A stretch of DNA of 64,000 bases from Antedon mediterranea (taxonomy: Eukaryota; Echinodermata; Crinoidea; Comatulida; Antedonidae). Below, one piece after another: positions 8,796 to 57,658 of this stretch. The notes beneath the pieces were generated by a model. It was not told where the DNA came from. It was given only the letters and a program-made list of their open reading frames with translations, and made no database searches. The stretch covers positions 23,042,412 through 23,106,411 of the forward strand of contig NC_092675.1 of the NCBI RefSeq assembly GCF_964355755.1. The letters are read 5' to 3'. The position numbers and the translations under genes were made by a program. Numbering within the stretch: the stretch's first letter is position 1; every line of letters starts with the position of its first letter.

Positions 8796-8839
<44 letters not shown>

Positions 8840-8969: not shown

Positions 8970-9001
<32 letters not shown>

Positions 9002-9128
9002 TTACAGCAACAAACAATGAGGCAGAAACATCGGTAGCAGAAACAACTTTAACTACAAACAGTGTATCAACTATGGAGACACCTTTGTCAAGTCCTGATA
9101 AAACAACAATGACCACTCCGGGAGCTGA

Positions 9129-9169
<41 letters not shown>

Positions 9170-24345: not shown

Positions 24346-24402
24346 TTTATTTTTTCTTCGTCATGTTTTTTTTTTTGGTTTTTACAATTCATATAGTTTA
24401 TT
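24346..24402 (-). terminator. Candidate poly(A) signals of the giant lectin gene
   Basis: AATAAA occurs on the minus strand at 24402-24397 and 24351-24346, about 274 and 325 nt after the stop codon at 24678-24676. The choice between them is open. Confidence 0.35.
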
Positions 24403-24675: not shown

Positions 24676-25049
24676 CTAGATGAATAGTAAATCTTGTGAA
24701 CACGAGCACTTTTCGGTCTGTTGTAGCTCAAGTTGAACTGTGCTGTTGTCACTGCATCTAAAATGTTTCAGTGACATACTGGTCTCTGATGGTTTACACA
24801 CCCCAGTTACACTTATTCTTTGGAGACGCTGTTCAATAGATATCACTTTAGTGTATGAAGGGCAGCATCCGGTACATTCAGTTGTCTCGATAACACCAGT
24901 GCATGTATGTCCAGAGTCTATTGTAATACACAGGTTCTTCTTTATTTGTTTGGTAGAACATGCTGTGGTTGGCTCTTCAATAGGGTTAATTTCTGTTGTA
25001 ACTTCTATTCTATCTACGTCAATGGAATGTGTTTCTTGAACAGGTGTCA
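24676..25049 (-). CDS. Last exon: cystine-knot-like (CTCK-type) domain
   Basis: Reads in phase 1 after the CTLD 3 exon. A linker with Thr, Glu and Ile is followed by about 90 residues with Cys in the pattern ACS...NLC...HTC...TECTGCC...GVC...FRC...KCSCS, ending 8 residues later. The CxGCC motif in the middle and CSC at the end resemble C-terminal cystine-knot domains of mucins, VWF and slit-type proteins, where the domain drives disulfide-linked dimerisation. The cysteine count is plausible but the alignment is by eye. Confidence 0.6.
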
Positions 25050-28000
25050 CTGAAATAATAATGTTTATAACTTGTTGTAAAGTTAGGTTTGTGCATTGAA
25101 GACATTCTGTTCTTCACTTAAGTTGGTAATTAAGTACAACTGGAAAATAAACATTTGAAACCTAAAAGTTGCTTTAATTATACTAAAATTATAATTTAAA
25201 AATGTACCTAATTCCTTGGCAACAGTTGTGAAGGAGTACGTAAATAACTCTGTCTCTGTTGATTTTTCGCAAGCTGCTATAAATAACTCGGAGCAGACAC
25301 GATCCTCCCATTTTCCAGTGGTTGATGTCAGAACAGCACAATTGGACGTACCTGGCTTTCCTAATTCCCAATCTGAAACATAGATAGTGAATTCAGAGTA
25401 CAGATAATAATATCCATGTACGGCCTATATAGGTGTGAAATATGAAAAAGAATATTGAGAATGTGGGTTTTAGAACCTAATCAGTAATAAAGCGTCTTTT
25501 TTAAGAAAGTAATAGGCCTAAGGCCGAAATGGAAATTATTTATGCCACTTGCATGCACAGTTTAATATTCAAATATTATTAAACAAACAACATACTTGTA
25601 AACCCAGATTCGTCTTGTCCACTACTCCATATTCCATCACCATTAACAGATAACCCAATCCACATAGCATCATTATACTTTCGACGTTGTGAAATCTTTG
25701 ATCTTAAAAACTCATTCTCTTCAAGATTATCAATTGTTGTCATCACTGCGTTTCTTTCTGAACAGAAAGAACTAGCTGACGAAAAACTCAACCTTCTTAA
25801 TGAAAACTGGTAACACTTTTTGTTGAAATAGACCCAGTTCTCAGGACACAATTCTAAAATAAAAAAAAGGTTTGTATCAGTATTTTATTTAACATTAAGC
25901 TAATGTATTATTATTGTTTAAATAATATTAAACCTATAATGTTGGAATTGGTATTATTTTTCAATATAAAATGATTACCAGAATGAAAACCCACCTGCAT
26001 AGTTTGTTTCTGAATAGCTTTCCGTAACTACCTGAGGTTTCTCAGTTGATTTGGATGACGAAATGTCAGCTTTGTTTTCAACATGAAATAAATCGGTACT
26101 TGTATCTCCATTGTCTTCTGTAGTCACGGGAGATTTGACTACTCCTTGGTCAACTTCATTAGGTGTCTGTGTTTCTCCATTTTTTGTTGTTTTTTCTGTG
26201 TCTGTTTCATCAACAAAAACGATTTCTGTAGTTTTATCAACTTGTTCAACCATATCAGGAGCTTCCGTCCCAACTTTGTTCTCACCTTCTCCTGACTCTG
26301 TATCATCTGTAACCGTTTCAATTTCTATCTCTGTGTCTACAACGACCTCAGGAAGAGCTTCAGTAGTTTCGTCTGACTTTTGGTCAACTTCATCAGGTGT
26401 CGGTGTTTCTTCTATAATATCATCACCTCCTGTTTCAACCACAATCTTTACCTGTGGCTCTTCCTCAGTAGTAGTAGTAGTAGTCTCTGTTTCTTTTTCA
26501 GGTTCTTCAACACCATTGGAAACAATTTCTTCATTAGTTTCGTCTGTGTCTGTTTCACCAGCAACATCAACAGTTTCCATAGTTTTGTCAGATATATCTT
26601 CAATAATCTCTGGACTCTCTGTTCCAAACATTTCCTCTGTTTCTTTTTTGTCATCAGTAAGCTCAGCTGTTGTCATTTCTGTTTCACCTTCAGCCTCAGC
26701 TTCTGTTTCTTCTATTGTTTTTCCAGTAGTCTCTTTATCTACTGTTTCATCCGTCACTGTTTCTTTTTCAATTGCCCCAGGACTCTCTGTTCCAACTGTT
26801 TCCTCTGTGTCTTTCTCATCATCAGTAGGCTCAGTCACAACATCCTCTTCCATCTCTTTGTTATCCATTGTTTCTGTTTCTTCTTCATCATCAACTTCTG
26901 TTGTAGTTGTTTCTTCTATTGTATCTTCAGTAGTCTCCTTTTCTACTGTTTCATCCGTCACTGTTTCTTTTTCGATTGCCTCAGGACTTTCTGTTTGAAC
27001 TGCTTCCTCTGTGTCTTTCTCATCATCAGTAGGCTCAGTCACAACATCCTCTCCCATCTCTTTCTTATCCATTATTTCTGTTTCTTCTTCATCATCAACT
27101 TCTGTTGTAGTTGTTTCTTCTATTGTATCTTCAGTAGTCTCCTTTTCTACTATTTCATCCGTCACTGTTTCTTTTTCAATTGCCTCAGGACTTTCTGTTG
27201 TAACTGTTTCCTCTGTGTCTTTTTTGTCATCAGTAGACTCAGTCACAACATCCTCTCCCATCTCGTTCTCATCCATTGTTTCTGTTTCTTCTTCAGCCTC
27301 AGCTTCAGTTGTTTCTTCTATTTCCTCAGTATCTTCAGGTGTGTCTTTTTCTACTATTTCATCCGTCACTGTTTCTTTTTCCATTGCCTCAGGACTGTCT
27401 GTTTGAACTGCTTCCTCTGTGTCTTTCTTATCATCAGTAGGCTCAGTCACAACATCCTCTCCTGTCTCTTTCTCATCCATTGTTACTTCTGTTTCCTCTT
27501 TAGCCTCAGGCTCTGTTGTAGTTGTATCTTCTATTTTCTCTCCAGTATCTTCAGTAGTCTCTTTTTCTACTGTTCCATCCGTCACTGTTTCTTTTTCAAT
27601 TGCCCCAGGACTGTCTGTTTGAACTGCTTCATCTGTGTCTTTCTCATCATCAGTAGGCTCAGTCACAACATCCTCTCCCATCTCTTTCTTATCCATTATT
27701 TCTGTTTCTTCTTCAGCCTCAGCTTCTGTTGTAGTTGTTTCTTCTTCAGTATCTTCAGGTGTGTCTTTTTCTACTATTTCATCCGTCACTGTTTCTTTTT
27801 CAATTGCCTCAGGACTTTCTGTTTGAACTGCTTCCTCTGTGTCTTTCTCATCATCAGTAGGCTCAGTCACAACATTCTCTTCCATCTCTTTGTTATCCAT
27901 TGTTTCTGTTTCTTCTTCAGCCTCAGCTTCTGTTGTAGTTGTTTCTTCTATTGTATCTTCAGTAGTCTCCTTTTCTACTATTTCATCCGTCACTGTTTCT

Positions 28001-31000
28001 TTTTCAATTGCCTCAGGACTTTCTGTTTGAACTGCTTCCTCTGTGTCTTTCTCATCATCAGTAGGCTCAGTCACAACATCCTCTTCCATCTCTTTGTTAT
28101 CCATTGTTTCTGTTTCTTCTTCATCATCAACTTCAGTTGTAGTTGTTTCTTCTATTGTATCTTCAGTAGTCTCCTTTTCTACTGTTTCATCTGTCACTGT
28201 TTCTTTTTCAATTGCCTCAGGACTTTCTGTTTGAACTGCTTCCTCTGTGTTTTTCTCATCATCAGTAGGCTCAGTCACAACATCCTCTTCCATCTCTTTG
28301 TTATCCATTGTTTCTGTTTCTTCTTCATCATCAGCTTCAGTTGTAGTTGTTTCTTCTATTGTATCTTCAGTAGTCTCCTTTTCTACTGTTTCATCCGTCA
28401 CTGTTTCTTTTTCCATTGCCTCAGGACTTTCTGTTTGAACTGCTTCCTCTGTGTTTTTCTCATCATCAGTAGGCTCAGTCACAACATCCTCTCCCATCTC
28501 TTTCTTATCCATTATTTCTGTTTCTTTTTCAGCCTCAGCTTCTGTTGTAGTTGTTTCTTCTTCAGTATCTTCAGGTGTGTCTTTTTCTACTATTTCATCC
28601 GTCCCTGTTTCTTTTTCAATTGCCTCAGGACTTTCTGTTTGAACTGCTTCCTCTGTGTCTTTCTCATCATCAGTAGGCTCAGTCACAACATCCTCTTCCA
28701 TCTCTTTGTTATCCATTGTTTCTGTTTCTTCTTCATCATCAACTTCTGTTGTAGTTGTTTCTTCTATTGTATCTTCAGTAGTCTCCTTTTCTACTGTTTC
28801 ATCCGTCACTGTTTCTTTTTCAATTGCCTCAGGACTTTCTGTTTGAACTGCTTCCTCTGTGTCTTTCTCATCATCAGTAGGCTCAGTCACAACATCCTCT
28901 TCCATCTCTTTGTTATCCATTGTTTCTGTTTCTTCTTCAGCCTCAGCTTCTGTTGTAGTTGTTTCTTCTATTGTATCTTCAGGTGTCTCTTTTTCTACTG
29001 TTTCATCTGTCACTGTTTCTTTTTCAATTGCTTCAGGACTCTCTGTTTGAACTGTTTCCTCTGTGTCTTTCTGTTCATCAGTAGGCTCAGTCACAACAGC
29101 CTCTCCCGTCCTTGTCTCATCTATTGTTACTGTATCATCCTTATCTGTCCCGGAAACTTCTGTTTCAGTGACTTCTTCACTTTCAAATTCCACAACTGAT
29201 TTGAAAGATGATTCTTCGTAAACAACATTTGTTGATGTTTTGCATATAACACGATGCACTTTTTTACACGATTCAGCCATCCACTTTCCTGTGGACGATA
29301 TAATTACTGCACAAGCTCTACCATCATCTCCAACTGAATCATCTACATTTATATTGGATGGTTCTCCATCCTTCCAATCTGTGAAATTAGATATATACTA
29401 CAAATTAGATAACATTTATTATTAGAAATTACGAATTCACTTGCTAATCGTCATATTCGATTATGAATTTTAGAATGAGGTTTATGAGATATCTGTTTTG
29501 ATGTATTATTGTATTGTAAAACCTTAAATCCGAGTTGCATGTTGAAATAAGCTGATTCCACTAACACTCATTATTTAATAAAAAGTATTTGACTTTCGAA
29601 ATTTCATTTATAAAACCAAACAAGATTGTCAAAAACATCGTCATAACTAAAGAAAACCATAATTGTGTGAATGTATTCTGTAAGGGAAAAGGAAGTTGCT
29701 TCATTTTATTTTTTATTTTCAAATAAAAAGAAGAAATTATTTACTACACAAATACTACAATATAGATAAAACTAGAAATTGCAAAGTGCAAGTGAGTGAA
29801 GCAGATATAACATTACATAGTTTTGATGAGTCAGGGCCCTCCTAAAGACAGAAACTGAATGTCAATATTAGAACACTTCTCATTGTACAATCTCTGCCTG
29901 ATAAATGTATTTCACCTGTAAACATCAACTCTGCATAGGTGTCTTATACCAATGTTTTGACAAGCAATGACTTTTATGAGAGGTCAAATTGCTGTGCAGA
30001 ATATGAATAGTTGACATAAAGCAATAAACATATTACACATAGAGCGTGTATTTGTATATGTTAGCTGCTTGTTTCCAAAATGTTATTCGTTAACATTATC
30101 GTATTCATTATTGGTGAAACATTTTCATATAATTCCAAGACAAATACCCAAAATTCTATTTTAAATTAAAATTTACTTACTTTCAAATTGAACATCTTCA
30201 CCGGATTGCCACCTCCATTCCATTCCATATTCGCGTGTATAACCTATCCATGCACGGTTATTGTACCACTTTTTCTTTAACAGATTCTCTTTAACAAATT
30301 CATTTTCATCTTTACTAGACATATCAGCTAGATAAGAATTTTGTTCTCGACAATATTTGATAGCAGCAAAAACAGTAAAGCGTTTATTTGTGAATTTATA
30401 GCAGCTTCCTTGATATTGCAGCCATCCTACATTACACAAACCTGCATGTAAAAGAATTATTATAATTAAAAATTAAAGACAAGATAACATTTAATAACAT
30501 TTGCTTAACCTAGATAAAGAACATTATTTACTCAATATTAGTGTATAGTGTACATTTTTCAGTTTAAAAATATGAATACATTATGTTTCTATTTTTACTT
30601 ACTGCATCCATTAATAGTTTCTTTATCATCATCTACAGTTCCGTCAATCTCATCTTCAGTTTCAGTTATTTCTTCTACCTGGTTTTCAACTGTAGTTGTC
30701 TGATCAGCAGTAACCTCTGTGTCAGTTTTTTCATCAATATCATTAGTTACGGTTCCTTCTGCATCTATCTCATCTCCAGTTGTTTTGTCATCAGTAGTCT
30801 CCGTGTCTACGTTGTCATCCATAACTGTTTCTTCTTCAGCAGTAGTTTCTGTGTCTTTCTCAGAATCATCAACGCCATTGGAAACAATTACTTCTGTTGT
30901 TTCATCTGTGTCTGTTTCATAAAAAATATTAATGGTTTCTGTAGTTTTGAAAGTTTCTTCTTCCACTGCCTCAGGACTTTCTGTTTCAGTTGGTTCCTCT

Positions 31001-34000
31001 TCATCAGTAGGCTCAATCACAACATCATCACTTGTCTTAATCTCATCTGTTGTCACTTCTGCTTTTGTTTCTGTTGTTTCCTCAATTTCTTTTAGAGTAC
31101 CTGCAGTAGTCTTTGTGTCTACTGTATAAACCGTAACTGTTTCTATCGTAGGCTCATTCCCAACAACCTCTTCCGTGTCTGCCCCATCTGTTACTTCTGT
31201 TTCTGTTTCATCACCAACCTTAGCTTTTGTTTCGGTTGTTTCTCCAGTTTCTTTTCCTGGTTCTTCAGTAGATTCTGTGTCTACTGAGTCAACAATTAAT
31301 GTTTCTTCTTCAGTAGTTGTAGGACTCTCTGTTTCATCTGTTTCCTCTGTTTCTTTCTCTTCGTCAGTAGGCCCAATCACAACAACATCTCCCTTATCAG
31401 TCCCACCTGTTGTTACTTCTGTTTCATCATCAACCTCAGCTTCTGTTTCAGTAGTTTCTTCAGTTTCTTTTCCGGGTTCTTCAGTAGATTCTGTGTCTGC
31501 TGTGTCAACAATTAATGTTTCTTCTTCAGTAGTTGTAGGACTCTCTGTTTCATCTGTTTTCTCTGTTTCTTTCTCTTCGTCAGTAGACTCAATCACATCT
31601 CCCTTATCTGTCCCACCTGTTGTTACTTCTGTTTCATCATCAACCTCAACTACTGTTTCAGTAGTTTCTTCAGTTTCTTTTCCGGGTTCTTCAGTAGATT
31701 CTGTGTCTGCTGTGTCAACAATTAATGTTTCTTCTTCAGTAGTTGTAGGAATCTCTGTTTCATCTATTACCTCTGTTTCTTTCTCTTCGTCAGTAGGATC
31801 AATCGCAACAACATCTCCCTTATCAGTTCCATCTGTTGTTACTTCTGTTTCATCACCAACGTCAGCTTCTGTTTCGGTTGTGTCTTCAGTTTTTTTTCCG
31901 GGTTCTTCAGTAGATTCTTCGTCAGAGGGCTCAATCACAACAACATCTCCCTTATCTGTCCCACCTGTTGTTACTTCTGTTTTATCATCAACGTCAGCTT
32001 CTGTTTCAGTAGTTTCTTCAGTTGCCTTTCCGGCATCTTCAATAGTTTCTGTGTCTACTGTTTCAACCGGTGTGTCTTCAGTTTCTTTTCCGGGTTCTTC
32101 AGTAGATTCTGTGTCTGCTGTGTCAACAACTAATGTTTCTCCTTCAATAGTTGTACGACTGTCTGTTTCCTCTGTTTCTTTATCTTCGTCAGTAGGCTCA
32201 ATCACAACAACATCTCCCTTATCAGTCCCACCTGTTGTTACTTCAGTTTCATCATCAACCTTAGCTTCTGTTTCAGTAGTTTCTTCAGTTGCCTTTCCGG
32301 CATCTTCAGTAGTTTCCGTGTCTACTGTCTCAACCGGAATTAATGTTTCTTCTTCAGTAGTTGTAGGACTCACTGTTTCTTTCTCTTCGTCAGTAGGCTC
32401 AATCACAACAACATCTCCCGTATCAGTCCCACCTGTTGTTACTTTGGTTTCATCATCAACCTCAGCTTTTGTTTCAGTAGTTTCTTCAGTTTCTTTTTCC
32501 GGTTCTTCAGTAGATTCTGTGTCTGCTGTGTCAACAATTAATGTTTCTTCTTCAGTATTTTTTGGACTCTCTGTTTCATCTATTACCTCTGTTTCTTTCT
32601 CTTCGTCAGTAGGTTCAATCACATCTACATCTTCCTTATCAGTCCCACCTGTTGTTACTTCTGTTTCATCACCAACCTCAACTACTGTTTCAGTAGTTTC
32701 TTCAGTTTCTTTTCCGGGTTCTTCAGTAGATTCTCTGTCTGCTGTGTCAACAATTAATGTTTCTTCTTCAGTTGTTGTAGGAGTCTCTGTTTCATCTGTT
32801 TCCTCTGTTTCTTTCTTTTCGTCAGTAGGCTCAATCACAACAACATCTCCCTTATCAGTCCCACCTGTTGTTACTTCAGTTTCATCACCAACGTCAGTTT
32901 CTGTTTCGCTTGTGTCTTCAGTTTCTTTTCTGGGTTCTTCAGTAGATTCTGTGTCTGCTGTGTCAACAATTAATATTTCTTCTTCAGTTGTTGTAGGAGT
33001 CTCTGTTTCATCTGTTTCCTCTGTTTCTTTCTCTTCATCAGTAGGCTCAATCACAACAACATCTCCCGTATCAGTCCCATCTGTTGTTACTTCAGTTTCA
33101 TCACCAACGTCAGCTTCTGTTTCGGTTGTGTCTTCAGTTTCTTTTCCGGGTTCTTTGGTAGATTCTGTGTCAGCTGTGTCAACAATTAATGTTTCTTCTT
33201 CAGTTGTTGTAGGACTCTCTGTTTCTTTCTCTTCGTCAGTAGGCTCAATCACAACAATATCTCCCTTATCAGTCCCACCTGTTGTTACTTCTGTTTCATC
33301 ACCAACGTCAGCTTCTGTTTCGGTTGTGTCTTCAGTTTCTTTTCCGGGTTCTTCAGTAAATTCTGTTTCTGCTATTTCAACAATTAATGTTTCTGTGTCT
33401 GCTGTGTCAACAATTAATGTTTCTTCTTCAGTTGTTGTAGGAGTCTCTGTTTCCTCTGTTTCCTCTGTTTCTTTCTCTTCGTCAGTAGGCTCAATCACAA
33501 CATCTCCCGTATCAGTCCCATCTGTTGTTACTTCAGTTTCATCACCAACGTCAGCTTCTGTTTCGGTTGTGTCTTCAGTTTTTTTTTCGGGTTCTTTGGT
33601 AGATTCTGTGTCTGCTGTGTCAACAATTAATGTTTCTTCTTCTGTTGTTGTAGGAGTCTCTGTTTCATCTGTTTCCTCAGTTTCTTTCTCTTCGTCAATA
33701 GGTTCAATCACATCTACATCTTCCTTATCAGTCCCACCTGTTGTTACTTCTGTTTCATCACCAACCTCAGCTTCTGTTTCAGTAGTTTCTTCAGTTTCTT
33801 TTCCTGGTTCTTCAGTAGATTCTGTGTCTGCTGTGTCAACAATTAATGTTTCTTCTTCAGTAGTTGTAGGAATCTCTGTTTCATCTATTACCTCTGTTTC
33901 TTTCTCTTCGTCAATAGGCTCAATCACAACAACATCTCCCGTATCAGTCCCATCTGTTGTTACTTCTGTTTCATCACCAACGTCAGCTTCTGTTTCGGCG

Positions 34001-37000
34001 GTGTCTTCAGTTTCTTTTCCGGGTTCTTCAGTAGATTCTGTGTCTACTGTGTCAACAATTAATGTTTCTTCTTCAGTAGTTGTAGGAATCTCTGTTTCAT
34101 CTATTACCTCTGTTTCTTTTTCTTCGTCAGTAGGCTCAATCACAACAACATCTCCCGTATCAGTCCCATCTGTTGTTACTTCTGTTTCATCACCAACGTC
34201 AGCTTCTGTTTCGGCTGTGTCTTCAGTTTCTTTTCCGGGTTCTTCAGTAGATTCTGTGTCTGCTGTGTCAACAATTAATGTTTCTTCTTCAGTAGTTGTA
34301 GGACTCTCTGTTTCAACTCTTTCCTCTGTTTCTTTCTCTTTTTCAGTAGGCTCAATCACAACAACATCTCCCTTATCAGTCCCACCAGTTGTTACTTCTG
34401 TTTCATCATCAACCTCAGCTTCTGTTTCGGTAGTTTCTTCAGTTTCTTTTCCGGATTCTTCAGTAGATTCTGTGTCTGCTGTGTCAACAATTAATGTTTC
34501 TTCTTCAGTTGTTGTAGGACTCTCTGTTTCTTTCTCGTCGTCAGTAGGCTCAATCAGAACAATATCTCCCTTATCAGTCCCACCTGTTGTTACTTCTGTT
34601 TCATCATCAACCTCAGCTTCTGTTTCGGTTGTGTCTTCAGTTTCTTTTCCGGGTTCTTCAGTAGATTCTGTGTCAACAATTAATGTTTCTTCTTCAGTTG
34701 TTGTAGGACTCTCTGTTTCTTTCTCTTCGGCAGTGGGTTCAATCACAACAACATCTCCCTTATCTGTCCCACCTGTTTCTACTTCGGTTTCATCATCAAC
34801 CTCAACTACTGTTTCAGTTGTTTCTTCAGTTTCTTTTCCGGGTTCTTCAGTAAACTCTGTGTCTGCTGTGTCAACAATTAATGTTTTTTCTTCAGTAGTT
34901 GTAGGAATCTCTGTTTCATCTATTACCTCTGTTTCTTTCTCTTCGTCAGTAGGTTCAATCACAACAACATCTCCCTTATCTGTCCCACCTGTTGTTACTT
35001 CTATTTCATCACTAACGTCAGCTTCTGTTTCGGTTGTGTCTTCAGTTTCTTTTCCGGATTCTTTGGTAGATTCTGTGTCTGCTGTGTCAACAATTAATGT
35101 TTCTTCTTCAGTTGTTGTAGGAGTCTCTGTTTCATCTGTTTCCTCTGTTTCTTTCTCTTCCTCAGTAGGCTCAATCACAACATCTCCCGTATCAGTCCCA
35201 TCTGTTGTTACTTCAGTTTCATCACCAACGTCAGCTTCTGTTTCGGTTGTGTCTTCAGTTTTTTTTTCGGGTTCTTTGGTAGATTCTGTGTCTGCTGTGT
35301 CAACAATTAATGTTTCTTCTTCTGTTGTTGTAGGAGTCTCTGTTTCATCTGTTTCCTCAGTTTCTTTCTCTTCGTCAATAGGTTCAATCACATCTACATC
35401 TTCCTTATCAGTCCCACCTGTTGTTACTTCTGTTTCATCATCAACCTCAGCTTCTGTTTCGGTAGTTTCTTCAGTTTCTTTTCCTGGTTCTTCAGTAGAT
35501 TCTGTGTCTACTGTGTCAACAATTAATGTTTCTTCTTCAGTAGTTGTAGGAATCTCTGTTTCATCTATTACCTCTGTTTCTTTCTCTTCGTCAATAGGCT
35601 CAATCACAACAACATCTCCCGTATCAGTCCCATCTGTTGTTACTTCTGTTTCATCACCAACGTCAGCTTCTGTTTCGGCGGTGTCTTCAGTTTCTTTTCC
35701 GGGTTCTTCAGTAGATTCTGTGTCTACTGTGTCAACAATTAATGTTTCTTCTTCAGTAGTTGTAGGAATCTCTGTTTCATCTATTACCTCTGTTTCTTTT
35801 TCTTCGTCAGTAGGCTCAATCACAACAACATCTCCCGTATCAGTCCCATCTGTTGTTACTTCTGTTTCATCACCAACGTCAGCTTCTGTTTCGGCTGTGT
35901 CTTCAGTTTCTTTTCCGGGTTCTTCAGTAGATTCTGTGTCTGCTGTGTCAACAATTAATGTTTCTTCTTCAGTAGTTGTAGGACTCTCTGTTTCAACTCT
36001 TTCCTCTGTTTCTTTCTCTTTTTCAGTAGGCTCAATCACAACAACATCTCCCTTATCAGTCCCACCAGTTGTTACTTCTGTTTCATCATCAACCTTAGCT
36101 TCTGTTTCGGTAGTTTCTTCAGTTTCTTTTCCGGGTTCTTCAGTAGATTCTGTGTCTGCTGTGTCAACAATTAATGTTTCTTCTTCAGTTGTTGTAGGAC
36201 TCTCTGTTTCTTTCTCGTCGTCAGTAGGCTCAATCAGAACAATATCTCCCTTATCAGTCCCACCTGTTGTTACTTCTGTTTCATCATCAACCTCAGCTTC
36301 TGTTTCGGTTGTGTCTTCAGTTTCTTTTCCGGGTTCTTCAGTAGATTCTGTGTCAACAATTAATGTTTCTTCTTCAGTTGTTGTAGGACTCTCTGTTTCT
36401 TTCTCTTCGGCAGTGGGCTCAATCACAACAACATCTCCCTTATCTGTCCCACCTGTTTCTACTTCGGTTTCATCATCAACCTCAACTACTGTTTCAGTTG
36501 TTTCTTCAGTTTCTTTTCCGGGTTCTTCAGTAAACTCTGTGTCTGCTGTGTCAACAATTAATGTTTTTTCTTTAGTAGTTGTAGGACTCTCTTTTTCATC
36601 TGTTTCCTCTGTTTCATCTGTTTTCTCCGTTTTTTTCTCTTCGTCAGTAGGTTCAATCACAACAACGTCTCCCTTATCAGTCCCACCTGTTGTTACTTCT
36701 GTTTCATCATCAACCTCAGCTTCTTTCTCAGTAGTTTCTTCAGTTTCTTTTCCGGGTTCTTCAGTAGATTCTGTGTCTACTGTGTCAACAATTAATGTTT
36801 CTTCTTCAGTAGTTGTAGGAATCTCTGTTTCATCTATTACCTCTGTTTCTTTCTCTTCGTCAGTAGGCTCAATCACAACAACATCTCCCGTATCAGTCCC
36901 ATCTGTTGTTACTTCTGTTTCATCACCAACGTCAGCGTCTGTTTCGGCGGTGTCTTCAGTTTCTTTTCCGGGTTCTTCAGTAGATTCTGTGTCTACTGTG

Positions 37001-40000
37001 TCAACAATTAATGTTTCTTCTTCAGTAGTTGTAGGAATCTCTGTTTCATCTATTACCTCTGTTTCTTTTTCTTCGTCAGTAGGCTCAATCACAACAACAT
37101 CTCCCGTATCAGTCCCATCTGTTGTTACTTCTGTTTCATCACCAACGTCAGCTTCTGTTTCGGCTGTGTCTTCAGTTTCTTTTCCGGGTTCTTCAGTAGA
37201 TTCTGTGTCTGCTGTGTCAACAATTAATGTTTCTTCTTCAGTAGTTGTAGGACTCTCTGTTTCAACTCTTTCCTCTGTTTCTTTCTCTTTTTCAGTAGGC
37301 TCAATCACAACAACATCTCCCTTATCAGTCCCACCAGTTGTTACTTCTGTTTCATCATCAACCTCAGCTTCTGTTTCGGTAGTTTCTTCAGTTTCTTTTC
37401 CGGGTTCTTCAGTAGATTCTGTGTCTGCTGTGTCAACAATTAATGTTTCTTCTTCAGTTGTTGTAGGACTCTCTGTTTCTTTCTCGTCGTCAGTAGGCTC
37501 AATCAGAACAATATCTCCCTTATCAGTCCCACCTGTTGTTACTTCTGTTTCATCATCAACCTCAGCTTCTGTTTCGGTTGTGTCTTCAGTTTCTTTTCCG
37601 GGTTCTTCAGTAGATTCTGTGTCAACAATTAATGTTTCTTCTTCAGTTGTTGTAGGACTCTCTGTTTCTTTCTCTTCGGCAGTGGGCTCAATCACAACAA
37701 CATCTCCCTTATCTGTCCCACCTGTTTCTACTTCGGTTTCATCATCAACCTCAACTACTGTTTCAGTTGTTTCTTCAGTTTCTTTTCCGGGTTCTTCAGT
37801 AAACTCTGTGTCTGCTGTGTCAACAATTAATGTTTTTTCTTCAGTAGTTGTAGGAATCTCTGTTTCATCTGTTTTCTCCGTTTCTTTCTCTTCGTCAGTA
37901 GGTTCAATCACAACAACATCTCCCTTATCAGTCCCACCTGTTGTTACTTCTGTTTCATCATCAACCTCAGCTTCTGTCTCAGTAGTTTCTTCAGTTTCTT
38001 TTCCGGGTTCTTCAGTAGATCCTGTGTCTGCTGTGTCAACCGTTAATGTTTCTTCTTCAGTAGTTGTAGGACTCTCTGTTTCATCTGTTTTCTCTCTTTC
38101 TTTCTCTTCGTCAGTAGGCTCAATCACATCTACATCTCCCGTATCAGTCCCATCTGTTGTTACTTCTGTTTCATCATCAACCTCAACTACTGTTTCAGTA
38201 GTTTCTTCACTTTCTTTTCCGGGTTCTTCAGTAGATTCTGTGTCTACTGAGTCAACAATTAATGTTTCTTCTTCAGTAGTTGTAGGAGTCTCTGTTATAT
38301 CTGTTTCCTCTGTTTCTTTCTCTTCATCAGTAGGTTCAACAACATCTCCAGTATCTGTCCCATCTGTTGTTAATTCTGGTTCTTCACCAACGTCAGCTTC
38401 TGTTTTGGTTGTGTCTTCAGTTTCTTTTCCGGGCTCTTCAGTAGATTCTTCGTCAGTGGGCTCAATCACAACAACATCTCTCTCATCAGTCCCACCTGTT
38501 GTAACTTCTGTTTCATCATCAACCTCAAGTACTGTTTCAGTAGTTTCTTCAGTTTCTTTTCCGGGTTCTTCAGTAGATTCTGTGTCTGCTGTTTCAACAA
38601 TTAATGTTTCTTCTTCAGTAGTTGTAGGACTCTCTGTTTCATCTGTTTCCTCTGTTTCTTTATCTTCGTCTGTAGGCTCAATCACAGCCACATCTCCCTC
38701 ATCAGTCCCACCTGTTGTTACTTCTGTTTCATCATCAACCTCAACTACTGTTTCAGTTGTTTCTTCAGTTTCTTTTCCGGGTTCTTCAGTAGATTCTGTG
38801 TCTGCTGTGTCAACAATTATTGTTTCTTCTTCAGTAGTTGTAGGAATCTCTGTTTCATCTATTACCTCTGTTTCTTTCTCTTCGTCAGTAGGATCAATCG
38901 CAACAACATCTCCCTTATCTGACCCACCTGTTGTTATTTCTGGTTCTTCACCAACCTCAGCTTCTGTTTTGGTTATTTCTTTTCCCGGATCTTCAGTAGT
39001 TTCCGTGTTTACTGTGTCATCCTTAGCTTCTGTTGGTTCAACCTCGATAACATTTTTATTTTCAGTAACATCCTCAGGGACAGCTTCAGTTGTAACCGTA
39101 CATTCTTCAGGTAATGGTAGCGTAGGATCTGGTATTTAATAGAGTTGCATATTGTTTATACATTGTTATATCGTGTATTTTATGGAATTTAATTTTAACA
39201 ACGTATTATTAACTTGAAATTTGAATGAATGATATTATTCTAACGGCTTTGATAAAGTCCCTTTTTAAAATGTTAATGATATAGAAAGGATTAAGACCTT
39301 GTTTGAAAGACAGAGAAAATATTTCTTTTTTTATAGGCTACAACACCCCTGATTGAATCATTGAATTAGATAATCTTGTAATTTTATTCCAGCTGGGCCA
39401 TTTTTAAATGTTTTATCGAATAATGACTGATCTCCTGAAAATACTAATTTATTTTTTTAAACTGTTTTTGTCACATAAAATATATTCACTTTTGTCAAAA
39501 AGTAGATCGAGAAACAGTTTTAAATTTTACAGTATTTAGAATATACTAACCAAATTCGCACAGTATCTTTATGTGTCTTTCACATGGTATTGCAAACCAC
39601 TGTCCTAAACGAACTTTCATTGCGGCACATAGGTTTCCTCTTTGTGGTTCTCCATCCTTCCACGCTGAAAATAATTTAAAATTATATAACTAATTAACTA
39701 AATATATTGAGTGAATGTAGTTTAATGTATATCTATGTATATATGATAAAGTATATGAATAGTAGTTGTGGAATGTGTTATTGTCTAAACATAAGAAATA
39801 TGTCACATCACCCACAATCTAAGGAACAACTCAATATCTCATGATTATGTAAAGGAACATGCTTTGTTTAGTGCAATACCTTCAAACCGTGATGTCTCAT
39901 CAGTTGGAATCCAACGATATCCATCAACCTGTGAAATGTAACGGTAGCCTATCCAGATAAGCTTGGTTTTGTAACCATCGTCAATAAGTCTTTCTTGCAG

Positions 40001-43000
40001 AAAGTCGTTTTCTTCTTGAGACGATATGACAACAGGTCTGGCATTGCACATTTCCTCGTTACATCGTGCGGCAATGCCCTCAAACGGATTTGCGTTTGCC
40101 ACAAAGTAACAATTCTTTCCATAACTGTAGGTTTGAGCCGGACATTCTGTGAAATAAATAATATGCGATAAATAATGTTTCAATATCTAATGTTCCCATG
40201 TTGTTGTCTAATATTTAAATGTGTATTTTTTATTTCGACAGGGTTAGCAAATATACATTGCTCCGATATCCTGTCATTATATGTATGCGAAACATCTTAT
40301 TATATAGCTATACTTTAAGAAAATGCACATCCAATACCGTAAATCCCGTTTAATATATTAGGGAGCTTTTGCATCGGGACGGTAAATGAAGGGGATGGTA
40401 ATTAACAGAGCGTAACGATTTTTTTCGACACAAGCGCTGACGTCATCCTTCTTGGTGAGTTTATGCGTCTTTGGTTAGAAAAGTTTATTTAGTCATTTTT
40501 GTCATTACCAAAATTGCAGCTTGACAAGGGAATAAGATATCTGAATCCTTTGATTTTCCGACGACAACATTACAATGATTAATTAAAAATGTCTTACCTA
40601 TCATAGGTTCTGCCGTCCTTTTCGCTATTCTATGGTTAACCTATGTAATATAAATATATACAATGATAGATATTTTCAATTTAAATCAACTTGAAACAGT
40701 GTTTCAATATCGAATATCCGTCGATATTCGTACGATAACAAGCTCAATTTATAGAACCTAACTCTTAAAGAAAGTTAACCTACTCTAACCTAAATACTTA
40801 ATAATATTAATTGAGTAAAATGGCCGAGTGGTTAAGACAGAAACGCCGTTTACCATACATCAGTTCGAGGCCGACTACCTCCTAGTTCTGGTGGTGGAAC
40901 AAGTCTTCTCAGATATGGAATATAAGCCGTAGGTCCAATGTACACAATTTGCCCTTTGCCTTTAACGAAAATCATTCGTTCCCGGTGAACTGGTTTACAA
41001 AATATCCTCTTGGTCAGTGAGATTGTCACCAATCGGATAGGACAGTGATTGATTTACTAACACTAATTAATCAGTGGAGCTGCTGATTGGCAGAAAATCG
41101 TCGACATAAACTTTCTGAAAATGAGATTATTGTATTTGTCGTGTGATTATACTGCATAATTTTCGTCGTCGCTAAACAAGATACCGATCTGGTGAAACAG
41201 TCTGGTATGTTCTTTTTAAAATTATAACTAGTATTTATTATGAAACATGAACAAACCAGGCTTAGTTTCTCTGAAAAATTGCTAAGAAAACATGTCATGG
41301 ACAACAGTATAATAAAATTGGTAAAATAGTCAAAGTAAAGCAAGAAAAAAAAAATTATAGTCATGCAGACAGTTTCATGTTATAAGAAGGTTTTAAGGAC
41401 GTACATGTGTATTGCAAAGTGGTAGATCGGTTTGCCGTTTTGTATTTTTACACTATTACACATTGCTGTATTTATAATACTCATGTGCTACTCACAATTT
41501 GATATTGTAAAATTAACATATTAATTAACGGAAACATTTTAGGCATGAGGAAATAAAGCTATTAACCTCGTTCTAAAATGCAATGGTGTTCTTTATATTA
41601 TGATTATGAACTCGCTCTAAATTGATTAGGATACCGTGGCATGCTATGGACTGCTGTATTGAATTGAAATGATGGACCTGTTTCAATCGTAATCAATCAT
41701 TTCCACATGCAAAAATTGACCGTTTGAACATTAATTTAAAACCGTATTATCATACTGGTTCACTACCAAATTGATGCATGCATTTTCGGTATGTTGAAGT
41801 TATTATAATCTATACAGTAATTTGTATTTAGCTTGTACAGTTTTATAAAGCCAGCCTAATGTTTATGGACGTTTTCAGAAAACACAAGTAATAAAAAAAA
41901 AAAACAATAGGCCTACAGGCGTATAGACAGTAATATTAATAATATTAAAAATAATGGAATCAGTCTTTAATATTATAAAACAACCCAATAAATAAAGTCA
42001 TGTTAGAACATATAAACATATAAGCGCGTAACAATTTCGAAAGGCATTGTGGGATAGAATAGAGCTATGGGTGGTGCCATTGTGAGCCATGGAGTAGGGC
42101 GCCCGCATCAAATTAGAAAGTCAAAATCATAGAGGGGATCTGCTAATGCTCTAGGGGGGATAGAGTAATTGACTGAGGAGTAGGGCGCCCGCATCAAATT
42201 AGAAAGTCAAAATAATTGAGGGGATCTGCTAATACTCTAGGGGGTAGAGTAATTGACTACCTAGTTTGGAGGGGGAGCTGCTCCATGCTGTGAAATGGCG
42301 TCGCCCAGTTTGACCTTTTAACCCTGTACTTCCGATACTGTGTTTTGAATGCAAATTGAAGAACAGGAGATTCTTGTGTTATAAGTTCTTTGATATAAGT
42401 AATAATCAAATGAACCGCTAAACATTCTGAATTGTGTATTAATGTACGTTACGTGAGCCGCTGTTTTAATACATCTGTGTTATGTCACTATAAACTTCCT
42501 TCCAGCTTAACAGCTGAACTGATTCAGTGGTTATATCAATGAACTTTCGAATTGAGATAATTATCGTAAAAGTTCGTCATGCAATGCAAGATATTAAATA
42601 GTCTATTAAAAAGGATAAATGTAACAAGTTGTTTCATTATAATTTAACTATTATATTTAGTCATGACAAACTGGTGTACCATTATATCGATAATTATGAC
42701 GATCCACTTGGAAATGTAATTATCAAATGTGTATTCGCTCAAAGGGGAAGAAAAATCGTGAAGTGCCTATATTGTGTGACGGTGATATGAAATTTATAAA
42801 CTAAAGCTCTGTCTACACTATCAAACTTTAAGACAAATAATGTGATGTGCCTATGGACATGATGATGTCATATCACTACCGTATTTAGGCATATCACACT
42901 TTTTTGTCAAACTAGAAATTGATAATGATGCCATATTATAATTATCATGATTTAGGCCTAAAATAAATTTATATAAATTAATCTATTAAAATGTTTTACG

Positions 43001-45821
43001 ATGAACCAATATAATTTTATTTTGTTTGTTTGATAGATGCTGTTTTTTTTAAATTGGAGATGAACATCTTTAAATACGGTAGCCAATTTTCTGGTTCAAT
43101 TTAAAAAAATGGCTGTATATGTATTGTGTATTAGACACCTAAAGAACAATCCATTTTGAAATGAAATTTAATTATCAAATGTGTACTCGCTCAAAGGAGG
43201 AAGAAAAACAAAGTACCTATCTCATTTGATGATATGAAACGTATTTGTGAAACTTAGATGTCAGAAATTGATTGTGATGCCATCCATTTTTATGTCATTA
43301 CAATTTAGGCCTAATCACAAAAAGTAAGACCAGAAACAAGATGACTTTACAAAACAATTTTTACTCGATCGTTAACTACATTAAGAGTATCTGAGGACAG
43401 GATGACTTTTAAATTTGTCTTAAATGTACCGTGTCTGAACATTAGCCTGGTCAAGCGACCGACTATAACCGAATTACGGAAGAACTGTCACAGTAAGTTT
43501 TAAAATATTTTTACAAATTAGTTTGTGAACGGCCATTGCACTATTTTTATATCCGTCGACAAATACAATATGATAGAAAGAGAAGCGTGTAAAGGTTGCG
43601 CCATCTACAGTACGGTCGACTTCGCTTTATGAATTTTAACCAGATTTCAAAGCAATCGACTGCGGTGCGGTGCTCCGTTTGGAGAGATATTTTAAAAGGA
43701 CAAATACCCACTCAATTAACGTGAGCTGAAAGAACACAGGGGTTCGTTTTTCTAGTGGCTGATCTGGATAGGCGCGAATGCTGACGGCTGTGAGTCCGCA
43801 GATTAAATTGCCTCAGTTACAAGTTATGCTGGGGGACGATAATAAAACATACCTATACTCGATAACCAAACGGGAAGGGTAAGCCCAAAATGGTGTTTCA
43901 GATTCTAAAGCTGTTGTTTATATTGGATAAATAATCTTGTTATAGGCGATTTATTTTCATCGCTATAAAACATTGATTTATTTTGTTTTGTACCGCTATA
44001 GTGCCGCTATAGCTAAATAATTTCTAGTAGGCAGTGTTGAGTATGGTTGATAGAGCTAACCTAACACTTTTTAAAAAATAGAAGCGTACTTAGCTGTGGC
44101 TCCATGAAAAATAATTTATTGCGACTATTTTCCAACGCGACATATTTTATCCCGTCACCAATCTTTATATTAGGTCGGTGGTATACCAGTATAAATTGAA
44201 AGTATTTAAACTGAGTGACGTAATAATTAATTTGTAAATATGCCTTTCTAATTTGTATCATCATCATCATTGGCAAGATCCAGGGGCGGATGAATTGAGT
44301 TCATTGGTGGTATGTGATAATAATAATATAATATCCTGGATTTATATAGCGCCTAATGTTGTGAAACCTCTAAGCGCTGAATAATATTACCCCAGTCAAT
44401 TTTTTGATCAAACATACTCCCATAATGCAGCTAGTATTCAGCGCAAAGTGGGATTCGAACCTCGATCTCTCGATCAGTAATCCAACGTCCGGACACACTT
44501 TGCGCCACACGCCCTAACTGGCGACGGCAAGAAAGCCTCCTTCCCACAAGTTAACATCTGCCCTAAAAATATGTAAATAGTAATATACCTCGAGGCTACA
44601 TTATAGTACTGTGACTACACTACTTTCACAATACAAAAATTTGAATTAATGTAGGCCTCATAATTAGAAATATTTAAAGTAAATTAATAAAAGAACAAAA
44701 AAAAATCCATTTCATTCAATTATTAAACAGAAAGATCTGATTTATAAGGAAATTTGATGTAAGCTTTAGTACAGTAACAGTCAACATAAGAGAACATAAA
44801 ACATTTTGTTCAATAACATATACTGCAAGTCGTTGCTAATTGCAATCCCTTTTGGGTTAAAACAAGTGCATTCTTTAAAAGATATCGCAGACATCATTTA
44901 TGTAAACGAAAGTAGACCTGTCAATATCAGTATGAATGATGTAACTGTAACACGTTTTCAAGTTCCTAATTTTGGTTTTTCTCCATTTTTTTTATGATAT
45001 TATATAATTATTTATCAGCCTACAAAATACAAGGCTAGCTAATTTTAAAAATGGACAATAAATCTTTATACAAAGTATAGGCTATACATCTAATTTAGAA
45101 GTATTACCAGAGTTAACACAGTTCTATAAAGATGTATTGTCTTATATAAAATGAAAAATAAAGATTAATAAAATCAGACTTTGAAGATGTTTGTAGTTAC
45201 TTCCGATGGGGAAAATGACAAAATAAATGGTTAAGTTCAACTAAAAAACCTATTGGCTGGCAGCCAATTTGACAATGTTTTGCTTTAAATTACAGTTTTT
45301 TAGGTAAATACATTTTCTTTTTCAAAGTGGATAACTATTATATGTCTATTACTACTATTATATTAAACTAACAACTTTTTTTTAAGGGGGACAATACATC
45401 TTTAAAATATGAACTAAATGTGTTGACAATTAACCAATACAATTGTATTTTTTGTTTTATAAATGCATTTTTTTTTTCAAAATTAGCAATGAACATCTTC
45501 TAATAGCCAAATTTCCGGTTCAGTTAAAAAACTGTAAAAATGTATCTTTATTAAAATCTTAATACATACTTGAATTATTATCAAATCAATACACATAATA
45601 CGTATTTTATTAATCTCACAGCTACGATTAAACTAGAAATTAGCATTGTTAATGTAAGATATATATATATATATTTTATAAATGTCCAATCTAATTTTTT
45701 TTAATGGCCATATTTAATAAATCACGGTTCTGAAAAAAAAGTATTACTATAAACTTACCAGCTTGACTGCCTGTACAGTTGTCAACATGCACAACACAAT
45801 AATGGTATGTAGGTCTCTCAT
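24676..45821 (-). CDS. Giant secreted protein: 3 C-type lectin domains, two acidic Glu/Thr repeat regions, cystine-knot-like C-terminus (10 exons)
   Basis: Exons in transcript order (minus strand): 45821-45759, 40640-40598, 40146-39880, 39664-39551, 39128-30603, 30441-30181, 29378-25995, 25853-25596, 25372-25208 and 25049-24676. Every border is GT-AG. Intron 1 is phase 0 and the other eight are phase 1, so the frame stays open for 4,484 aa. Order: signal peptide; 14-residue linker (VNHRIAKRTAEPMI); CTLD 1 (about 36-162); acidic region A (about 163-3004); CTLD 2 (about 3005-3137); acidic region B (to about 4219); CTLD 3 (about 4220-4348); linker; cystine-knot-like domain (to 4484). The acidic regions are rich in Glu, Thr, Asp and Val and almost Cys-free. 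I infer an extracellular gel-, matrix- or coat-forming protein. The function is unknown, and separate shorter transcripts cannot be excluded. Confidence 0.7.
25208..25372 (-). CDS. Exon: second half of C-type lectin domain 3
   Basis: Starts phase 1 after a TTTCAG acceptor. It encodes WELGKPGTSNCAVL, then GKWEDRVCSELFIAACEK, the conserved 'W..G.P...C......G.W.D..C.....CE' half of the fold. WED corresponds to the WND calcium-site motif. The sugar-specificity loop reads GKPGT rather than EPN or QPD. Confidence 0.85.
25596..25853 (-). CDS. Exon: first half of C-type lectin domain 3
   Basis: Encodes LCPENWVYFNKKCYQF at the start, then SSFCSERNA, ENEFLRSKI and AMWIGLSVN. The CPxxWxxFxxxCY start, the helix-2 ENEF motif and the WIGL core are diagnostic of long-form C-type lectin domains. 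The exon ends phase 1 (donor ACAA|GTATGT). Confidence 0.9.
25995..29378 (-). CDS. Exon: second half of CTLD 2 fused to acidic repeat region B
   Basis: The first about 46 residues (NWKDGEPSNINVDD, ACAVIISSTGKWMAESCKK, HRVICK) complete CTLD 2. About 1,080 residues of acidic repeats follow in the same exon. The dominant unit is 68 residues (204 bp) with blocks EEAVQTESPEAIEKETVTDE, IEETTTTE and EDVVTEPTDDEKDTEE, repeated about a dozen times between roughly 26790 and 29090 and then degenerating toward the end. The exon ends phase 1 (GCAG|GTGGGT). The unit spacing is regular and in frame, which points to expansion by unequal exchange under coding constraint. Confidence 0.85.
30181..30441 (-). CDS. 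Exon: first half of C-type lectin domain 2
   Basis: Encodes LCNVGWLQYQGSCYKF, then IKYCREQNSYLADM, SKDENEFVKEN, NRAWIGYTRE and WRWQSGEDVQFE. This is a standard first half of a long-form CTLD. Phase 1 at both ends, with donor GTAAGT. Confidence 0.9.
30603..39128 (-). CDS. 8.5-kb exon: acidic Glu/Thr repeat region A
   Basis: A single uninterrupted frame of 8,526 nt (2,842 codons) from the acceptor AATACCAG|AT to the donor GCA|GTAAGT. It begins DPTLPLPEECTVTTEAVPED and then consists of imperfect units of about 71 residues with blocks ESPTTTEEETLIVDTADTES, TEEPGKETEETTETEAEVDD, ETEVTTGGTDKGDVVVIEPT and DEEKETEE. The last about 150 residues before the donor diverge into non-unit acidic sequence ending INGC. 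Cys is almost absent except near the two ends. Predicted to be highly acidic, extended and disordered, with many potential Thr O-glycosylation sites and possible low-affinity cation binding. The frame has no stop and the flanking splice phases match CTLD exons, so I regard it as genuine coding sequence. Confidence 0.85.
32700..38100 (-). repeat. Higher-order repeat inside acidic exon A
   Basis: Diagnostic unit variants recur in register. The variant encoding ERVETES (plus strand GTTTCAACTCTTTCC) sits at 34310, 35990 and 37259. The variant with CTCTTCGGCAGTGGG sits at about 34723, 36403 and 37671. Spacings are 1,680 bp (560 codons) and 1,269 bp (423 codons), both multiples of three. Confidence 0.8.
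39551..39664 (-). CDS. Exon: second half of C-type lectin domain 1
   Basis: Encodes AWKDGEPQRGNLCAAM, RLGQWFAIPCE and IKILCEF in phase 1 to phase 1. EPQ occupies the EPN/QPD position and the WND motif is replaced by WFAIPC. Confidence 0.88.
39880..40146 (-). CDS. Exon: first half of C-type lectin domain 1
   Basis: Encodes ECPAQTYSYGKNCYFV, ARCNEEMCNARPVVISSQEE, NDFLQERLIDDG, KLIWIGYRYI and YRWIPTDETSRFEG. It has the CTLD starting disulfide pair and the WIG core, plus an extra Cys pair (CNEEMC). Phase 1 at both ends. Confidence 0.9.
40598..40640 (-). CDS. Exon: 14-residue linker of the giant lectin gene
   Basis: A 43-nt exon (ACATAG|GTTAAC ... GATAG|GTAAGA) encoding VNHRIAKRTAEPMI, phase 0 in and phase 1 out. 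That is exactly what is needed between the signal-peptide exon and CTLD 1. The paralogue at 56780-56822 keeps the same length and splice sites with changed residues (VNYRIEKRTPESMI). Confidence 0.6.
40818..40905 (+). repeat. tRNA-like sequence in intron 1 of the giant lectin gene
   Basis: Contains an A-box-like TGGCCGAGTGGTTAAG and a B-box-like AGTTCGAGGCC, as in tRNA-Ser/Leu or SINE promoters. The only other copy seen is at 56970-57063, inside the duplicated block, so it may have travelled with the duplication. Confidence 0.45.
42024..42392 (-). mobile_element. Truncated reverse copy of the CABLES-intron MITE
   Basis: Matches the 20743-21150 MITE in reverse complement, including the internal tandem duplication and one TIR (42361-42392, GAACAGGAGATTCTTGTGTT). 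The other TIR is missing, because the match begins at GCGCGTAACAATTTCG. Confidence 0.85.
44317..44513 (-). repeat. tRNA-derived SINE
   Basis: On the minus strand it reads TAGGGCGTGTGGCGCAAAGT, then a B box GGTTCGAATCCC (about 44461-44450), a body with GGGGTAATATTATTCAGCGC, and the tail GGCGCTATATAAATCC with an ATTATTAT run. The A and B boxes plus the tail structure indicate a pol III-driven SINE. The tail is shared with the element at 4341. Confidence 0.75.
45759..45821 (-). CDS. Exon 1: signal peptide of the giant lectin gene
   Basis: ATG at 45821-45819 opens MRDLHTIIVLCMLTTVQA, a strong signal peptide with predicted cleavage after VQA, then VKL and the donor CTG|GTAAGT in phase 0. It joins in frame to the 43-nt linker exon 5.1 kb away. 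It is the only signal-peptide exon I found upstream of CTLD 1. Confidence 0.65.
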
Positions 45822-56200: not shown

Positions 56201-56822
56201 GTGATGTCTCTTCAGTTGGAATCCAACGATATTCATCAACCTGTGAAATGTAACGGTAGCCTATCCAGATAAGCTTCGTTCTGTAACCATCGTCAATAAG
56301 TCTTTCTTGCAAAAAGTCGTTTTCATCTTGAGACGATATGACAACAGGCCTGGCATTGCATCTTTCCTCGTTACATTGTGCGGCAATGCCCTCAAACGGA
56401 TTTGCGTTTGCCACAAAGAAACAATTATTTCCATAACTGTAGGTTTGAGCCGGACATTCTGTGAAATTAATAACACAAATAATGTTTCAATATCTAATAA
56501 TGTTCCCATGTTATTGTCTAATATAAATGTGTATTTTTTTTTTATCACGACAGGGTTAGCAAATATAAATTGCTCCGATACTCTTTAATGTCTTTAATGG
56601 AGGAAAGTGCTTAGGTTAGGAAAGTTTATTTCGCCGTTTTTGTCATTACCAAAAAGGCAGCTTCACAAGGAAATAAGATATCTTGCTATGTTACCATGAT
56701 TATAATGGTAGCTGCATGAAGATGTGGATTGATTTGAGTTCAGCCCGACGACAAAAATACAATGATAAAAATGTCTTACCTATCATAGATTCTGGCGTCC
56801 TTTTCTCTATTCTATAGTTAAC
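53245..56822 (-). CDS. Partial paralogue of the giant lectin gene: linker, one CTLD and a shorter acidic tail
   Basis: Exons (minus): 56822-56780 (linker VNYRIEKRTPESMI), 56458-56192 (CTLD first half, ECPAQTYSYGNNCFFV to SRFEG), 55302-55189 (second half, AWTNGEPQRGDLCAAM to ILCEF) and 54758-53245 (acidic region). Splice sites, phases and exon lengths (43, 267 and 114 nt) are the same as in the large gene. The acidic exon begins DPTIPLPRECTAEVVPED and has about 503 codons of units such as TETTDDPGKETEETTEIEAD, ending TEVTTGAE and a stop at 53247-53245. It has no CTLD 2 or 3 and no cystine-knot domain. The intron between the CTLD halves has grown from 215 to 889 bp through SINE insertions. All frames are open, so this may be an expressed shorter paralogue; its first exon is uncertain (see 57551-57658). 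Confidence 0.7.
55322..55466 (-). repeat. Inverted copy of the AT-tailed repeat in the paralogue intron
   Basis: GGCAAATTACTGAAAAATGA, CAATGCTGTGGGAATCAGTG and GTTAGCAGAGCTTTTGGGCA are the reverse complement of the 23741 family. Confidence 0.75.
55467..56085 (-). repeat. Two inverted tRNA-Glu-like SINE copies in the paralogue intron
   Basis: Each copy has, on the minus strand, a tRNA-like head (about 55615-55545 and 55975-55900) with GGTCTAATGGTTAGGACA-type D arm and a CTGCATATCAAGCAG-type anticodon arm, plus the TTAATTAAT body. Upstream blocks TCGCTATCCAATCGAG and GAGGGACTAGTGCT-like sequence also match the copy at 62280-62580. Confidence 0.7.
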
Positions 56823-57550: not shown

Positions 57551-57658
57551 CCTAAGTCCAATGATGTATTTACCAGGAATTGGTTTCTTGGCTTTGCGTA
57601 ATGGTGCTAGGGTAGCACTGGCGACAACCACCAACAAGAGAAGACAAAATACACGCAT
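57551..57658 (-). CDS. Exon: signal peptide and start of a subtilase-type propeptide
   Basis: ATG at 57658-57656 opens MRVFCLLLLVVVASATLAPL, then RKAKKPIPGKYIIGLR, ending at CTTAGG|GTATGT in phase 0 (36 codons). The acceptor is TTGTTCTAG|ACTACATC, 8 nt before the ATG. A strong signal peptide followed by basic residues and IPGKYII resembles the start of the inhibitor I9 prodomain of secreted subtilisin/proteinase K-like proteases, which typically begins 'xPGxYIVxL'. No protease catalytic exons are visible in the window. The donor phase would allow splicing to the linker exon at 56822-56780. Confidence 0.6.

Follow-up and report, generated by a model that had tools for sequence, protein, structure and literature searches.

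Very long secreted proteins with a repetitive centre and a C-terminal cystine knot are familiar from the gel-forming mucins and the VWF/hemolectin-like proteins, and the lecticans (aggrecan, versican) combine a C-type lectin-like domain (CTLD) with a long, extended central region. Rosetteless of the choanoflagellate Salpingoeca rosetta has a signal peptide, two CTLDs and Ser/Thr-rich tracts and is found in an extracellular layer, as described in the relevant passages of PMC4381721. The flatworm adhesion proteins Mlig-ap1 and Mlig-ap2, with their homologues, are giant secreted repeat proteins, and RNA interference against them abolishes adhesion (PMC8621496, in the sections concerned). Here we describe a predicted gene of the crinoid Antedon mediterranea, gene A, in which known parts are apparently brought together in a new combination: a putative signal peptide, three CTLDs separated by two enormous acidic repeat arrays, and a C-terminal domain that resembles a cystine knot. 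It lies in a 64-kb window (the whole stretch of DNA analysed, C6:23042412-23106411; plain positions below are counted within it) of a genome of 354.4 Mb in 18 contigs.

Gene A comprises ten minus-strand exons, E1 to E10, which run from 45821 to 24676 and join into a single open frame of 4,484 residues whose sole stop codon is the terminal one (Table 1). All of its introns are GT-AG, one of phase 0 and eight of phase 1. When E3–E10 were rebuilt from splice sites, AG acceptors and GT donors were found throughout and every junction was of phase 1; with E1 and E2 added, the protein length equals that given in the initial annotation of this DNA. That the exons form one transcript, as proposed there, is well supported by the sequence. 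For each of the eight exons E3–E10, the frame upstream of the acceptor reaches a stop codon without passing an ATG (E2 carries one internally), and the modules are connected by short introns, of 161 bp between array 1 and CTLD2, 141 bp between array 2 and CTLD3, and 158 bp between CTLD3 and the knot; separate CTLD genes are therefore unlikely, and such genes starting within E3–E10 were rejected for want of internal starts. The remaining introns measure 5,118, 451, 215, 422, 802 and 223 bp. E7, of 1,128 codons, holds the second half of CTLD2 and the whole of array 2 together. An antisense frame of 2,669 codons was considered as a gene and rejected, since the sense frame continues CTLD2 within the same exon. 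The predicted protein would have a mass of about 492 kDa without its signal peptide, and the net charge of the whole precursor would be near -1,320.

The 5' end of the model deserves separate comment. E2 was chosen by an ad hoc splice-consensus scoring of phase 0-to-1 exons in the gap between E1 and E3, where it scores 8.2 and the runner-up 7.1. It is identical at 39 of 43 bases, without indels, to the corresponding exon (VNYRIEKRTPESMI) of a partial copy of the gene, paralogue B, in a surrounding stretch that is 72% identical with many gaps; all four differences alter the residue, which suggests that the frame and the splice sites have been conserved rather than the sequence. E1 is the weakest part of the model. 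The 12 kb upstream contain four signal-like open reading frames (ORFs) that have a phase-0 donor; E1 is one of them, with the best donor score and the second-highest hydrophobicity, and a genome-wide search with it at E 1 gave no further match. A hydrophobic-core scan points to a putative signal peptide in it, as first proposed. The first intron of gene A also contains one copy (42022-42393) of an inverted repeat whose other copy lies at 20742-21113; the two are 98.9% identical and each carries an 86-bp duplication.

The three CTLDs were recovered by a Pfam domain search, with Lectin_C (PF00059) above its curated cut-off of 22.6 bits in each case (scores in Table 1). The conserved CTLD cysteines are present in an alignment of the three domains with the paralogue B copy, and the WIG motif appears as WIGY, WIGY and WIGL. 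Sub-cut-off Pfam matches include the viral families UL45 (CTLD2 and CTLD3) and A33R (CTLD3). The EPN, QPD and WND motifs do not occur anywhere in the 4,484 residues, GEPQ, GEPS and GKPG being found instead, so that no canonical calcium-dependent sugar site is predicted, and canonical sugar binding is not supported. Lectin_C domains are numerous in this genome, with at least 154 exon-level matches. CTLD2 finds its best other match in CTLD3 (48 bits) and CTLD3 its own in a C10 gene (55 bits); CTLD2 is missing from the match list of CTLD1 at E 0.001, and a mutual closest relationship of CTLD1 and CTLD2 is not evident from the sequences. The C10 locus (C10:21806844-21807854) has a 609-codon open frame that contains two CTLDs, the best matches of CTLD3 outside gene A.

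The two arrays together amount to about 3,900 residues, with a net charge per residue of -0.34 in E5 and -0.33 in E7. Their composition (for E5, Glu 27%, Thr 25% and Asp 12%) and charge bear out the description of the spacers as acidic and rich in Glu, Thr and Asp. Counted between anchors, E5 has 36 intervals, 20 of them of 72 residues, and E7 has 10, nine of them of 68 residues; no other Pfam family matched the arrays at E 0.01. Judged by their sequences, the two arrays are homologous. Their end caps align with a score of 274, compared with at most 189 in 1,000 shuffles, the E5 unit in this comparison being a composite; when units were compared again in exact form, 49 of the 50 pairs drawn from array 1 and array 2 beat all 200 shuffles, and overall one shuffle in 10,000 scored as high. 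Duplication of a whole CTLD-plus-acidic module would have support from the arrays only.

By its sequence features, E10 is a probable, divergent cystine knot, with the framework CxGxC, Cys-Pro and CxC in that order. The knot that the initial annotation had placed in this exon thus holds up, below the Pfam cut-offs yet first of 1,250 ORFs from a 144-kb stretch with each of two profiles. The first profile, which combines two knots of the same genome (L018 and L019) with segments of gremlin-2 and NBL1, gives E10 30.4 bits (E 2.3e-8; next 0.45) and is mildly circular, because L018 and L019 were found through their similarity to E10. The second was built from six knots picked by Pfam without E10 (L055 was dropped as a near-duplicate of L054, and L053 and L057 were unused) and gives 20.8 bits (E 3e-5; next 0.31). 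With either profile, none of 1,000 Cys-preserving shuffles of E10 scored as high. A profile of one sequence, L059, gave E10 1.9 bits, a value reached by 134 of 988 shuffles. A PDB search with E10 alone returned no match. With the L019 knot, gremlin-2, NBL1 and gremlin-1 came out on top (E 1e-4 to 8e-4) and VWF followed at 0.024; with the L018 knot, most matches were TALE-repeat proteins, which were judged chance matches made of many weak stretches, and VWF (E 0.031) was last among the 30 matches listed.

The order of the framework is shared with the DAN/gremlin and VWF knots, DAN being the best Pfam match, and E10 has the spacings C-x8-C and C-x13-C in common with L018. It differs from these knots in having ten cysteines, two of them surplus: Cys4422, within a CxGCC motif reminiscent of PDGF and VEGF, and either Cys4391 or Cys4401, the choice being ambiguous since the alignments with L018 and L019 disagree on it. 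In VWF, CxCC and a terminal cysteine form the bonds between chains. Among eight knots examined in this genome, CxCC is present in six (L018, L052, L054, L056, L058 and L060; not L019 or L059) and a cysteine after the final CxC in seven (not L059). E10 has neither, and the VWF- or mucin-type dimerisation raised in the initial annotation is, as a covalent linkage, not supported by its sequence. Once its 18 signal residues are removed, the gene A protein has 31 cysteines, an odd number that leaves at least one free for a bond outside the chain, and covalent cross-links through the surplus cysteines, not of the VWF type, are possible.

A genome search with one composite query, built from units of array 1 (E5) only and 98% identical to its best match, yielded 47 matches at E 1e-6, confined to three loci: gene A, paralogue B and C11:13392565-13393864. 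Paralogue B, a truncated neighbour of gene A in the window, repeats E2 to E4 and continues into a shorter acidic array with its own stop. No copy of CTLD2, CTLD3 or the knot was found for it within 144 kb, and genome searches with the knot and with CTLD2 found no close copy. Between A and B, CTLD1 has a dN/dS of 0.56, a value resting on 6.5 synonymous changes. The third CTLD1-acidic copy (locus L065, C11:13392300-13395359) is decayed, its E3 match being reduced to 25 residues and its frames broken.

Paralogue B and the C11 copy each lie downstream of an exon that encodes MRVFCLLLLVVVASATLAPLRKAKKPIPGKYIIGLR or a close relative. The one in front of B ends in a phase-0 donor and so supplies the phase that E2B needs. 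This signal-peptide exon has nine matches in the genome, five of them on C4, and its peptide is not recognised by Pfam. A Peptidase_S8 match follows 1.9-5.6 kb downstream on the same strand of all five C4 copies, which makes it look like an exon that opens S8 protease genes. No CTLD1-like exon is present in the 10 kb surrounding the C10 copy, which, together with the inverted second copy in the window, suggests that the exon has also been dispersed by itself. We hypothesize that paralogue B may use a captured S8-type signal exon. The exon shuffling suggested earlier is thus upheld in part: the phase-1 exons, the shared origin of the arrays and a protease-like signal exon before two related copies are consistent with it, and what fails to bear it out is that no donor was found for gene A itself and that CTLD1 and CTLD2 are not shown to be nearest relatives.

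Table 1. Features of gene A, paralogue B and the signal-peptide exon (window positions unless a contig is given)
Feature	Position	Strand	Evidence or remark
E1: start codon (ATG 45821) and predicted signal peptide MRDLHTIIVLCMLTTVQAVKL	45759..45821	-	phase 0 end, donor GTAAGT; least certain exon
E2: 43 nt, VNHRIAKRTAEPMI, dibasic KR	40598..40640	-	phase 0 in, phase 1 out; top acceptor/donor pair in scan
E3: CTLD1, first part	39880..40146	-	splice sites, Pfam
E4: CTLD1, second part	39551..39664	-	Lectin_C 46.5 bits across E3+E4
E5: acidic Glu/Thr/Asp array 1, 2,842 codons	30603..39128	-	commonest spacing 72 residues; no Pfam match
E6: CTLD2, first part	30181..30441	-	splice sites, Pfam
E7: CTLD2, second part, and acidic array 2 (68-residue spacing)	25995..29378	-	Lectin_C 64.4 bits across E6+E7
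E8: CTLD3, first part	25596..25853	-	splice sites, Pfam
E9: CTLD3, second part, and linker	25208..25372	-	Lectin_C 62.9 bits across E8+E9
E10: putative C-terminal cystine knot (10 Cys) and stop codon	24676..25049	-	profile searches
AATAAA, possible poly(A) signal	24346..24351	-	starts at the 325th base past the gene A stop
Paralogue B, E2B	56780..56822	-	alignment to E2
Paralogue B, E3B (CTLD1 copy, first part)	56192..56458	-	alignment to A
Paralogue B, E4B (CTLD1 copy, second part)	55189..55302	-	alignment to A
Paralogue B, E5B: acidic array of ~500 residues, own stop	53245..54758	-	sequence comparison
Signal-peptide exon (MRVFCLLLLVVV...), possible first exon of B	57551..57658	-	phase-0 donor, 0.7 kb upstream of E2B
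Other copy of the signal-peptide exon	59717..59824	+	
Other copy of the signal-peptide exon	C11:13395252-13395359		
Other copy of the signal-peptide exon	C10:20823398-20823499		
Other copies of the signal-peptide exon	five places on C4		

How, then, does gene A compare with the described systems? It resembles the gel-forming mucins and VWF in great length, repetitive centre and C-terminal knot. The gel-forming mucins have Pro-Thr-Ser tracts, however, whereas gene A has acidic Glu/Thr repeats and a knot without CxCC and the terminal cysteine. A Pfam scan of E3–E10 gave no match to VWD, C8 or TIL; it returned Lectin_C and otherwise only knot-like and other weak matches below cut-off. From the lecticans gene A differs in its few Ser-Gly pairs and in that the Pfam scans gave neither a Link nor an Ig domain; there are eight Ser-Gly in the 4,484 residues, five of which fit a simple acidic-SG pattern, and a proteoglycan core was rejected because they are too few. 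With Rosetteless and Rtls-like animal CTLD proteins it shares a signal peptide, more than one CTLD and low-complexity tracts that contain Thr, but Rosetteless is a protein of 119 kDa with Ser/Thr runs and EPN present, and the relevant passages on it mention no cystine knot (PMC4381721). The flatworm adhesion proteins likewise combine repeat arrays with C-type lectin domains, according to the legend of the family figure, but they also carry vWD, TIL, TSP-1, EGF and LDL domains, and their repeats are Lys/Arg-rich or of 221/255 residues and not polyanionic (PMC8621496, same sections). On these partial accounts, Rosetteless and the flatworm adhesion proteins would be the nearest described analogues. 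The order CTLD-acidic-CTLD-acidic-CTLD-knot was not found in the open-licence literature, in titles and the beginnings of abstracts, or in the searched portion of a limpet paper (PMC7333891), nor did the open-licence literature yield any co-occurrence of "C-type lectin" and "C-terminal cystine knot".

With slightly more confidence than doubt, we take the product of gene A to be a polyanionic strand that is secreted, responds to calcium, bears CTLDs as nodes and ends in a knot, destined for mucus, glue or matrix; a role in a network, coat or adhesive, as first suggested, is what we infer from the architecture. In water the arrays, as disordered polyelectrolytes, would swell, and calcium would condense or bridge them. 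The CTLDs, which lack the canonical calcium-sugar site, would serve as nodes that bind protein, glycan or mineral surfaces, and the knot would join two chains tail to tail, either non-covalently or via the surplus cysteines. The product would thus be an extended multivalent strand that could contribute to mucus, glue, cuticle or a mineral-associated matrix, and the protein would act like a gel-forming mucin without being one.

Several observations weigh against this reading. The product is a predicted protein, known here from the DNA sequence alone, and no counterpart of E1 was found in paralogue B. E10 lacks the VWF-type cysteines, as noted above, scores below the Pfam cut-offs for both DAN (18.2 against 22) and Cys_knot (13.1 against 24), and was modelled by AlphaFold from the single sequence with a pLDDT of 38.9; the VWF-like knot L018 likewise falls short of the DAN cut-off, at 19.5. 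Ser, Thr and Pro together average 29 per 100 residues, with a maximum of 38, so that dense mucin-type O-glycosylation is not expected. In a test of synonymous change in the arrays, the sense frame lies modestly above expectation, as do three further frames of E5, one sense and two antisense.

Among the alternatives, a mineral-associated acidic matrix protein fares best and is still unlikely. Its Glu/Asp arrays would bind calcium carbonate or amorphous precursors, and its CTLDs would tether them to an organic frame. Such a role would suit the charge density of E5, and the phrase "C-type lectin domain" occurs 18 times in a brittle-star skeletal proteome paper (PMC4336488); Thr, however, nearly equals Glu in E5, and Asp accounts for 12%. 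It is distinctly improbable that the exons belong to two or more genes (CTLD1-acidic on the one hand, CTLD2/CTLD3/knot on the other) or that the 5' end is other than E1. Paralogue B, a CTLD1-acidic unit with its own stop, implies that a gene of such shape can exist, and E1 has no copy elsewhere in the genome; against this stand the absence of upstream in-frame starts in E3–E10, the 161- and 141-bp joining introns and the consistent phase 1. Less probable again is a part in immunity or recognition, with gene A encoding a soluble opsonin of several CTLDs set apart by a long spacer. The abundance of Lectin_C matches is like that of animals with expanded lectin sets, but a polyanion of 3,900 residues far exceeds an ordinary spacer, the canonical sugar-binding motifs are absent, and the search with the E5 repeat found it at three loci only. 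We give least credence of all to a non-functional expansion, a repeat that is decaying or specific to a haplotype and yields no stable protein, which would agree with the one truncated and one decayed relative and with the four residue-altering differences in E2, but not with a frame open for 4,484 codons or with the dN/dS of CTLD1, few as its synonymous changes are.

The favoured reading of gene A as a secreted polyanionic strand may be extended, tentatively and with more doubt than belief, to a lineage-specific class of gel or glue proteins in which polyanionic arrays stand in for glycosylated tracts and CTLDs for VWD assemblies, a knot not of the VWF type forms the tail joint, and members arise by array duplication and capture of protease signal exons. 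If gene A is made and secreted, it would represent another route to a giant cross-linkable hydrogel protein, one in which charge does the work of sugar and lectin-type nodes that of VWD assemblies. Assembling long repeat genes of this sort from short reads is difficult, as noted for the flatworm adhesion proteins in the sections cited (PMC8621496), and a search for mucin domains would miss gene A. Its three related loci, one whole, one truncated and one decayed, open to study the birth of new secreted proteins through duplication and, possibly, signal-exon capture.

Elsewhere in the window, a plus-strand frame at 6201-6779 has a hydrophobic stretch resembling a membrane span and is followed by a Thr-rich, mucin-like repeat frame of 1,258 codons (7948-11721, plus strand); neither has a Pfam match at E 0.05, and our guess is that the two belong together. 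Two other plus-strand segments have weak matches, a reverse-transcriptase-like fragment at 1186-1584 (RVT_1, 19.9 bits, under the cut-off of 29.6) and a Cyclin_N match at 22330-22677 (17.1 bits, cut-off 23).

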